Shown piece by piece: positions 36,156 through 40,550 of a stretch of DNA of 41,220 bases. The notes below the pieces were generated by a model. It saw only the letters and a program-made list of their open reading frames with translations, ran no database searches and had not been told where the DNA came from. This DNA is from Nanobdellota archaeon (GTDB lineage: Archaea; Nanobdellota; Nanobdellia; Woesearchaeales; CG1-02-33-12), in NCBI GenBank assembly GCA_018819345.1, contig JAHJQG010000036.1:1-41220 (forward strand). The letters run 5' to 3'. A program made the position numbers and the translations under genes. How positions within the stretch are numbered: position 1 is the stretch's first letter; each line of letters opens with the position of its first letter.

Positions 36156-37304
36156 TCACTTTTTTTCTCTTCTTTCACTCAGAAAAATTATAACTGCCAG
36201 AATAATAATCCCCAGCAGTATATTGTATTTGTAGGAGATTATGAAGCCAATGATTTTAGCCAGAAAATTTGAATAATAGAAAAAAAATATTAATAAGACG
36301 CCAATTAAAACAAACATATACTTAAGGAATTTGTTCCTCTTATCGGTTTTTTTCAGGGCTTTTGGCTTTTTCTTTTTTTTCTTTGGTTTTTCTCTTTTTT
36401 CAAACCATTCCTCTTCAGACTCTTCTTCTGTGAAAAAGTCAATAATTGCATTCCAGATTCTTTTAAGGATTGCCTGTTTCTTTCTTTTTCTGGGCTTCTT
36501 CTTTTTCTTAATTTTTTTAGGCTTTCCCCCTTTAGGTTCCTCTATTTCTTCTGTAAAGAAATCAACTATCCCGTTCCAGGCGCTTTTTAATGCGCCTTTT
36601 TCTTTTCCCTGGATTTTTTCTATCTCACTAATCTTTTTTTTATCCTCTTTTCTTATTTCAGGATGTTTTTTCAGAAAGTCAATTATCCTCCTGAACCTTG
36701 AATCAAGCCTGTTTAGGTTTCTCTTAAAATAATTATTTTCAACTGAATTTTTTCTTACTGACTGGATTTCCTGCCTCAAGTCAGAGAGCTGTTTATTGAA
36801 GTATGATTTATCAATGAATCTTTTTTCCAGCTCATCAAGCTCTTTTTTCATGCTGCTGATGTCCTGCGCTCTTTTTTTAATTCTTGCATCAAACTTGTTT
36901 GCCTGCATCTTAAATTCATTCACATCAACAACAGTATTTTTTAGATCTTCAAATTCTTTTTTGATTCCATTGGCTTTTTCAAAGCTCTTAATCATAGAAT
37001 TAATTGATTTCTTCAGCTTTAATGCTTCTTTCAGCTCTTTTTTTAGCTTCTCTCTTTTTTTTATCTCCCTTAAGACCCAATTATGCTTTTCATTTAAGGA
37101 ATCTATTTCGCTTTGAAAGTCCTGGTTTTTAACAAAATCTTCCCTTATCTTAGAGAGTTTATTGTTTATATCCTGGACAAGATGCTCCTTTTCTTTGGTC
37201 AGGTTAATTATATCCCTTTTTACTGCAGAAAAAGATGATTTCAGGTTTTTATTTAAATTATAAAGCCTTATTTCTATATTTTCCTCTTTACCCCCAGAAA
37301 CCAT
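36156..37304 (-). CDS. Coiled-coil protein with repeated WNxI[VI]DFFTEE motif and C-terminal TMs
   Basis: Long heptads; AWNGIVDFFTEE and IWNAIIDFFTEE separated by Lys-rich linker; two C-terminal TM segments. Confidence 0.7.
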   Translation of the reverse strand: MVSGGKEENIEIRLYNLNKNLKSSFSAVKRDIINLTKEKEHLVQDINNKLSKIREDFVKNQDFQSEIDSLNEKHNWVLREIKKREKLKKELKEALKLKKSINSMIKSFEKANGIKKEFEDLKNTVVDVNEFKMQANKFDARIKKRAQDISSMKKELDELEKRFIDKSYFNKQLSDLRQEIQSVRKNSVENNYFKRNLNRLDSRFRRIIDFLKKHPEIRKEDKKKISEIEKIQGKEKGALKSAWNGIVDFFTEEIEEPKGGKPKKIKKKKKPRKRKKQAILKRIWNAIIDFFTEEESEEEWFEKREKPKKKKKKPKALKKTDKRNKFLKYMFVLIGVLLIFFFYYSNFLAKIIGFIISYKYNILLGIIILAVIIFLSERREKK

Positions 37305-37376
37305 TTTTAATTTTAAAGTAATAATTAACTATATAAACTTTTCGATAGTTAAAGGTCAATAGGGCTTTTTATTTTA
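37108..37376. repeat. Junction repeat copy A: coiled-coil gene 5' part, intergenic region and remnant xerA 3' end
   Basis: 37108-37235 and 37344-37376 match copy B at 39600-39757; reverse complement of the second block reads ...KIKSPIDL*, like XerA ...KIKSPIDI*. Confidence 0.9.
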
Positions 37377-37479: not shown

Positions 37480-37677
37480 TCAATATAAATAAGATTTTGT
37501 ATAAATAAGATGTTGCCTAGGTTTTATTTTATTATAAAATTGAGACTTATCTTTCCCACAGTGAATTACTTTAAACTTTGAGTTCATTGTTTTGATTATT
37601 ATATCTGCACCTTCCTTATGTTTCTTGATCTCCATAATTTCACCCTCAACTATTCTTTCTATTTGACTTGGATCCAT
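37480..37677 (-). CDS. Small (65 aa) protein of the RiPP-like cassette; beta-rich, possible OB/small-barrel fold
   Basis: MDPSQIERIVEGEIMEIKKHKEGADIIIKTMNSKFKVIHCGKDKSQFYNKIKPRQHLIYTKSYLY; upstream GGGAGAA SD-like sequence. Confidence 0.5.
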   Translation of the reverse strand: MDPSQIERIVEGEIMEIKKHKEGADIIIKTMNSKFKVIHCGKDKSQFYNKIKPRQHLIYTKSYLY

Positions 37678-37839
37678 TTTATTCTCCCAGCTGCGTTAGT
37701 AGTGCTGTATTTTCCTGTTGATAAAGGAACTATCATCTATTTAAATATTTTTCTATTTAGTAGTGGTAATTTTTATAATATACGGTTTTTAGTTTGATTA
37801 AATATAAAAACTTAGGAAATATTTTAGTGTTATTGATTC

Positions 37840-39114
37840 TCACGAATAAAAATAAGGAGTTATAGTCATATCTTTACTTGTACATCTCCGTTTTCCTGTT
37901 TTAATATAATGAAGAGGACACCCACCATAACATACTGGTAAATAATAACACTTCCGGCATTTTTCATCCTTGAAAGGATTTGATTTTTGATACCACCTTG
38001 CTATATGCATCGAATTTAGTTGCATATTGCCTGTTTTATCAATATAGCCAATATCCGCTGTTTCTGTCGACTCGTTTATACATTTCCATATTTTTAAATC
38101 AGGGGTAACATAAAAAAAATTAATTCCTCCATCTGATTCACAATATTGCAGATAATAAGCACTTTTAAGTATACTAAATCCATACTTATCTGCTTCATCA
38201 TAAAATTTTTTTAAATCAAAAATTGTATTACTATTAGATACATTGAAATGGCTAGTTGAATAGATTGGCCTAAAATATATATTTATTTTTTTTCTCTCGT
38301 CTTTATCAAACAAATTAAAAATCGACTTAACATCATCAAGACTTTGATTTAATAAATTTACTCGTAGTATAAACTGAATATTTGATTTTATTTTAATAGC
38401 ATATCGTACTGCTGTTGTAAAATTATTGACAATTGTGTCAAAGGTTTCACCATTATTATGTAATACACGAAGTTTATTGTGGGTTTCTTTACGACTGTCT
38501 AATGTAACTTGAATTGAAACACAATTATACTTTAATAATGCACTAACCATATCTTTATCTAATAAGAATCCATTTGTTACAATACTAGTACTTAACTCAT
38601 AACCATATTTTTTACTTTGTATTAATAGGTAATCTAGATAAGAAAAAATTTCATCTTTTTTTAAAAGAGGTTCTCCACCAAATAAACTAATATGTACTCT
38701 TTTTTTATTACAAAAATTTTTATTAGCAAACTTCTTTAAAACATCAAAATAGTTTTTAACTTCATTATTTTCTTTTCCGGGTCCTGCCTCAAAACAATAG
38801 GGACATTTAAAATTACATCGTAATGTTGGTACTAATGCAACAGTAATTTTATCTGTTTGGAAATAATTTGCATTATATAAGTATTCAAGAATTTCAATTT
38901 CATTGATATTATCTGATAAAATAAAACCATTTTTTATCAATATATCTTGGTATTTCTTATTTTTTCCTGTACATGGATCTTTTTTTCTTAATATAGCCTT
39001 TACTTTTCCTAACTCAGCTTTTTTGACCTTAATAGACGCCCTGCTAAATGAATTAAATAAAAAAATAGAATCTTTTTCCAAAAAAAAATTATTATACAGG
39101 CTGGCCTTATACAT
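37840..39114 (-). CDS. Radical SAM/SPASM peptide maturase
   Basis: TLRCNFKCPYCFE (CxxxCxxC), SLFGGEPLL, SIVTNGFLL, and C-terminal CRKCYYLPVCYGGCPLHY...RRC SPASM cluster motif. Confidence 0.93.
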   Translation of the reverse strand: MYKASLYNNFFLEKDSIFLFNSFSRASIKVKKAELGKVKAILRKKDPCTGKNKKYQDILIKNGFILSDNINEIEILEYLYNANYFQTDKITVALVPTLRCNFKCPYCFEAGPGKENNEVKNYFDVLKKFANKNFCNKKRVHISLFGGEPLLKKDEIFSYLDYLLIQSKKYGYELSTSIVTNGFLLDKDMVSALLKYNCVSIQVTLDSRKETHNKLRVLHNNGETFDTIVNNFTTAVRYAIKIKSNIQFILRVNLLNQSLDDVKSIFNLFDKDERKKINIYFRPIYSTSHFNVSNSNTIFDLKKFYDEADKYGFSILKSAYYLQYCESDGGINFFYVTPDLKIWKCINESTETADIGYIDKTGNMQLNSMHIARWYQKSNPFKDEKCRKCYYLPVCYGGCPLHYIKTGKRRCTSKDMTITPYFYS

Positions 39115-39154
39115 ACTTCTCTCTCAATAATTTCCTTATATTCTTGATGGCAAA

Positions 39155-39193
39155 GTTGAAGTGAGTGAAAACTCACGCTTCCGCGTACTCAAC
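39155..39193 (-). promoter_or_regulatory. Structured intergenic element between putative precursor and maturase
   Basis: GTTGA(39155-39159)/TCAAC(39189-39193) enclosing GTGAGT-GAAA-ACTCAC (39161-39176) and CGC-TTCC-GCG. Confidence 0.55.
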
Positions 39194-39218
39194 ACTACAT
39201 ACAAAGAGATTAAGAGTT

Positions 39219-39461
39219 TCAGTTACAAGAACCGTTTCCTGTACAGCCACAGGCGTCAAGCCCTAATCTTCGTGTTGGTGTAAGTTCAATTGTATCTGGT
39301 TTAACCACTGCTTCATTAATTACCTTCATAATTTCTTCCGGTTTCGTTTGTTCTGCGTATATTTGATCACCTGTATACACATCTTGTGTCTGGTATGCTC
39401 TGTCTTCTTTTTCCTTTCCTGGAACAGAACTTAACTTTTGTTCTAATGCTTGGCTTACCAT
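39219..39461 (-). CDS. Putative RiPP precursor peptide (80 aa)
   Basis: Charged leader followed by Cys-containing C-terminus ...LTPTRRLGLDACGCTGNGSCN; AGGGGGT SD; directly upstream of rSAM/SPASM gene. Confidence 0.75.
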   Translation of the reverse strand: MVSQALEQKLSSVPGKEKEDRAYQTQDVYTGDQIYAEQTKPEEIMKVINEAVVKPDTIELTPTRRLGLDACGCTGNGSCN

Positions 39462-39599: not shown

Positions 39600-39757
39600 T
39601 CGCTTTGAAAGTCCTGTCTTTTAACAGAATCTTCCCTTATTCTAGAGAGTTTATTGTTTATATCCTGAACAAAATGCTCTTTTTTTTGGTCAGGTTAATT
39701 ATATCCTTTTTTACTGCAGAAAAAGAGATAGTTAAATGTCAATAGGGCTTTTTATTT
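39600..39757. repeat. Junction repeat copy B: decayed coiled-coil gene 5' fragment fused to xerA 3' end
   Basis: 39600-39726 is about 90% identical by eye to 37108-37235, with a 1-nt deletion; 39727-39757 matches 37344-37374; 108 bp of copy A are missing. Confidence 0.88.
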
Positions 39758-40550
39758 TTTCCATGGCTGTTTTTGATACATGGGTGTATACCTGGGTTGT
39801 CTCAAGCCTTGAGTGGCCCAAAAGCCTTTGTATATACCTTATGTCAATGCCATGCTCAAGAAGATGTGTTGCAAAGCTGTGCCTCAGGCTGTGAGGTGTT
39901 ACTTTCTTTTTTATGCCTGCTTTTTCAGCTGCTTTTTTGACAATAAGCTCTACTGCCCTTAATGAGTATTTATTGTTCCTGTTTGTCTTGAAGATAATAT
40001 CTTTTTTCTCAATATCTAATGTTTTTAGGTTTTTCTTTAATTTTGGCGAGAGCATTACTATCCTGTCTTTGTTTCCCTTTGCAAGCTTTATATGGATTAT
40101 GTTCCTGTTAAAATCAATATCTTTCCATCTTAAATTAATTATCTCGCTTGCCCTCATCCCAGAAGCATACATCAGCAGCATAATTGTCCTGTGGCCGAAG
40201 TTCTTAGTGCAGATAATCATATTTTCAATTTCTTTTCTTGAAAGGATTACAGGGAGCTTTTTGTCCCTTTTCAGGTTTGGTGTTTTTTCAATAATCCTGT
40301 TTATTGATTTATCCTGTTTTGCCTTAATGGCCAGATAAAACTTGATTGCAAAACCAGCAACCCTTACTGTTTCCTTGCTTTTTCCCTTATCAATAAGATT
40401 CAGCAGGAATTCCCTTGGACCAAGGCCTGATTCAATAAACTTGCCAACATGAAACATGTAAGCGCTTATTGTCTTTTTAGAATAGCCTTTAAGCTTAAGC
40501 TCATCTAGCAATAATTCTTTCCAGTTAGCATCATACAGGGCCCTGTTCAT
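39732..40550 (-). CDS. xerA: XerA-type tyrosine recombinase
   Basis: MLLMYASGMRASEIINLRWKDID; HSLRHSFATHLLEHGIDIRYIQRLLGHSRLETTQVYTHVS. Confidence 0.95.
   Translation of the reverse strand: MNRALYDANWKELLLDELKLKGYSKKTISAYMFHVGKFIESGLGPREFLLNLIDKGKSKETVRVAGFAIKFYLAIKAKQDKSINRIIEKTPNLKRDKKLPVILSRKEIENMIICTKNFGHRTIMLLMYASGMRASEIINLRWKDIDFNRNIIHIKLAKGNKDRIVMLSPKLKKNLKTLDIEKKDIIFKTNRNNKYSLRAVELIVKKAAEKAGIKKKVTPHSLRHSFATHLLEHGIDIRYIQRLLGHSRLETTQVYTHVSKTAMEKIKSPIDI

Follow-up and report, generated by a model that had tools for sequence, protein, structure and literature searches.

A peptide and radical SAM/SPASM maturase gene pair of Woesearchaeota and Candidatus Methanoperedens, probably a minimal RiPP-type unit

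The stretch of DNA analysed here (the window, 41,220 nucleotides) is one contig (number 26 of 72) of an archaeal genome of 895 kb. It carries a gene for an 80-aa peptide directly upstream of a gene for a radical SAM/SPASM enzyme, and we suggest that both genes form a minimal two-gene RiPP-type unit in which the enzyme modifies the C-terminal LDACxCTGN segment of the peptide. We assign this reading a probability of roughly 0.75. The pairing of enzyme and peptide is well supported; the chemistry and the function of the pair we infer. The following features are referred to below:

39219–39461, minus strand: precursor peptide gene, 80 aa, whose homologs in two further genomes (loci L013 and L012) likewise immediately precede the maturase gene
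37840–39114, minus strand: radical SAM/SPASM peptide maturase gene, 424 aa, with CX3CX2C at C100–C107 and seven SPASM cysteines
38848–39114, minus strand: N-terminal region of the maturase, residues 1–89, for which three strands and three helices are predicted in an RRE-like order, fold match not significant
37480–37677, minus strand: 65-aa gene, passenger, a variant member of a chromosomal gene family linked to rad50
37678–37825, minus strand: region upstream of the 65-aa gene, the distal ~115 bp being a copy of the divergent promoter of rad50 (87% to L014:3972-4087 across 118 bp)
37108–37375: right copy of duplicated host DNA, in which the coiled-coil gene is represented by its promoter and 5′ part, together with a sequence matching the 3′ end of xerA
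39600–39758: left copy of duplicated host DNA, comprising the xerA 3′ end and a fragment of the coiled-coil gene, without 108 bp that hold its promoter and start codon
39732–40550: XerA-type tyrosine recombinase gene (profile match)
36156–37304: coiled-coil gene

The three minus-strand open reading frames of the first-pass annotation are indeed present, and the 80-aa peptide ends in LDACGCTGNGSCN. Together they form a block inserted between xerA and the coiled-coil gene, with duplicated host DNA on its flanks, a feature that the annotation had overlooked. No structured RNA or tRNA that could serve as an attachment site was found within the window.

When homologs of the precursor were sought next to maturase homologs in other archaea, as had been proposed with the annotation, the pair was found in a Woesearchaeota congener (G002, locus L013), whose maturase is 95% identical, and in Candidatus Methanoperedens MnB_21 (locus L012), whose maturase is 73% identical. 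The peptide has 84 aa in G002 and 42 aa in Methanoperedens, where it consists of the conserved C-terminal part only. In the window the peptide has a variable N-terminal part and a conserved C-terminal part with Cys71, Cys73 and Cys79, and LDACxCTGN is located near the C-terminus at all three loci. Across the common C-terminal ~40 residues 17 positions are invariant in the three genomes, among them INEA, EL, T and L-x-LDAC-x-CTGN. The peptide reading frame is thus not a chance one: besides this invariance, it immediately precedes the maturase gene in all three genomes. The two Woesearchaeota peptides share 24 of 44 residues in the N-terminal part and 31 of 36 in the C-terminal part, and dN exceeds dS over the whole peptide. 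At the Methanoperedens locus the peptide transcript is probably leaderless, as the ATG follows closely 3′ of a TATA-like box.

The pair is rare. It was found in 1 of 377 genomes of a phylum-wide draw, in two close copies among 359 genomes of the order and in one close copy among 188 genomes of the Methanoperedens order. It is known from three loci only, two of which are close relatives; the three genomes span two archaeal phyla. No close homolog turned up among plasmids, phages, viral contigs and the remaining genomes searched, and the precursor had no significant match among viral, phage and plasmid sequences. Carriage by a virus, phage or plasmid was rejected as the matches were only distant and at the family level. 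Next to one distant maturase homolog (L024:2088-2933, genome G424) a tyrosine recombinase ORF is found in divergent orientation. In the passages of the literature that were consulted no published association of Methanoperedens with Woesearchaeota was found.

The maturase has a radical SAM core (PF04055, E 1.5e-18), and the CxxxCxxC motif that had been noticed in it is CNFKCPYC (C100, C104, C107). The SPASM-type C-terminus was likewise confirmed: it contains C325, C345, C386-x2-C389-x5-C395-x3-C399 and C411, and thus the CX2CX5CX3C motif and flanking cysteines that provide the ligands for two auxiliary clusters. All ten Fe-S cysteines, three of the radical SAM core and seven of the SPASM part, are invariant in ten aligned homologs. 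For the Methanoperedens maturase the model TIGR04085 scores above its cut-off (43.8 against 27 bits). With dN/dS values of 0.22 and 0.16 the maturase is under purifying selection. In a comparison with radical SAM/SPASM families, which the annotation had recommended, peptide maturase families score best but stay far below every curated cut-off. Named families match over nearly the full length: the two that score highest, CefB (NF038107) with 186.7 bits against an equivalog cut-off of 600 and TIGR04463 with 179.9 against 525, and also Clo7bot (TIGR04334) with 167.1 against 600. In a 16-row tree the three maturases form a clade, fully supported and with a stem length of 1.9 changes per site, to which none of the Clo7bot, TIGR04463 and Methanosarcinales rows belongs; the deeper forks of this tree are weakly supported. 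Among solved structures a profile search placed CteB on top (E 9e-32), and a Foldseek search with the AlphaFold2 model of the maturase returned CteB (E 7.7e-12) followed by SuiB (E 3.9e-9), the model itself being of moderate confidence (mean pLDDT 67.8) and low in the SPASM part. A defence function was also considered and rejected, the similarity being only to the generic viperin core.

CteB (PDB 5wgg and 5why), a SPASM peptide maturase from a study of thioether bond formation, shares the radical SAM core and the SPASM domain with the maturase and is its best whole-length profile and fold match. However, both proteins are only about 17–19% identical in the fold alignment, their precursors are unrelated and the SCIFF/CteB-type model TIGR03974 reaches 70.8 bits, far below the equivalog cut-off of 425. 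The Clo7bot maturase CtpM shares ~29% identity across 96% of the length and has short cysteine-containing peptides encoded upstream; these peptides, however, begin with MKFIKKP, have many cysteines and do not resemble the present precursor, and an ABC transporter gene is linked. At the one CefB/TIGR04463 locus inspected a long CefA peptide precursor and a linked C-methyltransferase are found, which sets it apart from the present pair. Archaeal relatives with a cysteine-containing precursor directly upstream are the SPASM maturases of Methanosarcinales (L021–L027), which are 26–28% identical, but their precursors have an NHLP leader (TIGR03793) and the core GGCxGCDGVGGCGFCEC. Homology of the present leader to these precursors was rejected (hhalign probability 0.5%). 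In Methanosarcinales (L021–L027; G538, G544, G559, G552, G550, G540) the NHLP-leader precursor directly upstream of the maturase is a recurrent RiPP-like pair of its own, and these maturases are Clo7bot-like, reaching 444 bits against the 600-bit cut-off. One of their maturase frames (L021, G538:C1:2442844-2444130) has an in-frame TAG where its relatives read HEIQW, which could be a mutation or, in Methanosarcinales, a pyrrolysine codon. The pair described here is a new and rare family of an already known kind.

The first ~90 residues of the maturase had been proposed to be a leader-recognition domain. Residues 1–89 are predicted to fold as βββ-ααα, and three strands followed by three helices is the order that defines an RRE (PMC12710340). 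On the other hand, Pfam and PDB sequence profiles did not detect an RRE in the maturase, and a Foldseek search with residues 1–89 alone returned CteB and the TbiB1 leader complexes among its matches, none of them significant. We therefore regard an RRE as likely but unproved.

The following course of events is suggested. The RRE-like N-terminal domain would bind the conserved peptide segment INEA...ELxxTxxL, and SAM would be cleaved at the CX3CX2C cluster to give the 5′-deoxyadenosyl radical. The two SPASM clusters would help to oxidise the C-terminal LDACxCTGN of the peptide, most plausibly with formation of cysteine thioether crosslinks, and a housekeeping protease, if any, would release the product. 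Thioether formation is the most plausible chemistry as CteB is the nearest solved relative and the tail of the peptide contains three cysteines. Most likely, the pair yields a small modified peptide acting intracellularly or between neighbouring archaea, and the data favour neither site. Genes for export, processing or immunity are not linked to the pair, and hence the product may remain in the cell or use housekeeping machinery.

Of the other explanations the one that survives best is that the modified peptide is not an exported natural product but is retained, on the enzyme or inside the cell, as a redox cofactor or a peptide-derived one. As the annotation had already noted for the cassette, neither a transporter nor a protease adjoins the pair in the window, and the same holds for the Methanoperedens locus, which fits such a cofactor. 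However, housekeeping export and proteolysis are possible, and a fast-evolving N-terminal part (24/44 identical) is unusual for the precursor of a conserved cofactor; we consider a cofactor possible, though clearly less likely than a RiPP-type product.

It is improbable that the enzyme modifies a separate protein in the manner of the anaerobic sulfatase maturases, or makes a small-molecule cofactor, with the 80-aa reading frame being incidental. The SPASM fold is common to the sulfatase maturases (profile A2 matches 4k37 at E 2.3e-27), and the lack of linked RiPP accessory genes would also agree with a separate target. Yet the peptide is kept beside the maturase across two phyla, and membership in the sulfatase maturase clade, which had been named as a case against the annotation, receives no backing: the model TIGR03942 scores 72 bits against an equivalog cut-off of 349, and no sulfatase-like ORF was recognised among the neighbouring ORFs by reading. 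With the pair kept in two phyla and nothing that indicates sulfatase maturation, the original proposal of a peptide precursor and its SPASM radical SAM maturase in an archaeon is upheld.

The 65-aa gene had been counted as part of the cassette, with an AT-rich promoter-like upstream region of its own. This region is, however, a copy of the divergent rad50 promoter at the native locus of the same genome. In the window's genome this native promoter faces a 172-aa gene, whereas in four congeners without the pair it faces two genes, the first of 105/106 aa and the second of 76/77 aa (in one congener truncated by the end of the locus). The 65-aa protein aligns along its length with the 76/77-aa proteins at 23–33% identity, and its gene is absent from the Methanoperedens locus. 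The 65-aa gene is a host-derived passenger, a captured rad50-linked chromosomal gene, and not a part of the RiPP unit. That it is a functional third member, for example an immunity or partner protein, is improbable: it accompanies the pair in both Woesearchaeota, and the two copies differ at no synonymous and six nonsynonymous sites, but the rad50 promoter, the end-to-end alignment with the second gene of the rad50-linked operon and the Methanoperedens locus without it speak against such a role. The rad50-divergent locus itself (L014:3972-4605, L039–L043) has a well conserved promoter and strongly variable facing genes among the congeners. In congener G005 (L042/L043, G005:C46) rad50 is seen as two overlapping matching stretches with many stops and may be broken or frameshifted by assembly.

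There is good evidence that the unit is mobile between genomes, namely a different site in each genome, a low maturase dS compared with chromosomal genes, AT-richness and duplicated host flanks. In the window it is located behind xerA, and four congeners with xerA have no unit there but an HTH gene and a cysteine desulfurase (by reading). In G002 it is found beside rad50, a site that is empty in the window's own genome. In Methanoperedens its neighbours are the gene of tyrosyl-tRNA synthetase on one side and a second gene on the other (assigned by reading); in G438 these two genes adjoin each other without the unit. In G451, the nearest relative, matching sequence is found in a 95-aa ORF, and the match stops at the edge of the MnB_21 cassette. 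Between the two Woesearchaeota the dS of the maturase is 0.109 compared with 0.206, 0.285, 0.291, 0.431, 0.495, 0.506 and 0.692 for seven chromosomal genes. The maturase gene has a GC content of 26.4% against 32.9% for the window, and in Methanoperedens of 28.7% against 44–46% for the flanks. No transposase or recombinase is present inside the unit.

In the window a 268-bp stretch, composed of the xerA end or coiled-coil promoter and the 5′ part of the coiled-coil gene, stands on both sides of the unit; the copies are 90–97% identical in pieces, and the left one has a 108-bp deletion. In G002 a rad50 fragment with the rad50 promoter is found on both sides (84% identical), and the about 230 bp that separate this duplicated fragment from the end of the maturase gene (L013:7293-7519) are an unassigned stretch. 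Segment A (peptide and maturase) and segment B (promoter and 65-aa gene) are permuted: the order is A-B in the window but B-A in G002, and the junctions agree within about 3 bp. Segment B of the window, however, does not stop at the G002 junction but goes on to match the 3′ end of the native gene linked to rad50. The route may have led through a circular intermediate, or A may have been inserted with a long duplication of the target and later loss of one copy; this overrun tends to favour the latter. For the same reason a sealed 2.1-kb circle was rejected as the sole cause of the permuted order. A recombination tract in rad50 was rejected as the origin of the insertion in the congener, since sliding identity shows no breakpoint.

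One end of the unit adjoins the XerA-type recombinase in the window, and integrons are known in archaea (PMC9668308); however, it is quite unlikely that the unit is a cassette of an archaeal integron or of another site-specific system driven by this neighbour, as the recombinase matches XerA best (204.8 bits) and the integron integrase model TIGR02249 below its cut-off (184 against 265 bits), four congeners have the recombinase without the cassette, and the sites in G002 and Methanoperedens are elsewhere. Both Woesearchaeota genomes are fragmented draft assemblies, but that the duplicated flanks and the permuted order are artefacts of assembly or binning is very improbable, since the flank copies differ by 3–16% and by internal deletions, which marks them as old duplicates and not as assembly copies, and the same kind of flank occurs in two separate assemblies.

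Few archaeal RiPP products have been identified so far (PMC12144867), and a full-text search of a literature collection did not turn up a paper describing such a system in Woesearchaeota. As a speculative extension, for which we see only a small chance, a two-gene module free of transporter, protease and recombinase might spread between DPANN and methane-oxidising archaea by an undescribed insertion route that duplicates several hundred bases of host DNA, and might install a new LDACxCTGN crosslink for communication or conflict. The compact pair, common to a reduced-genome DPANN archaeon and Methanoperedens, is a small and directly testable couple of enzyme and substrate. In addition, genes for peptide modification have here moved between distant archaea, and their flanks make it possible to study the route.
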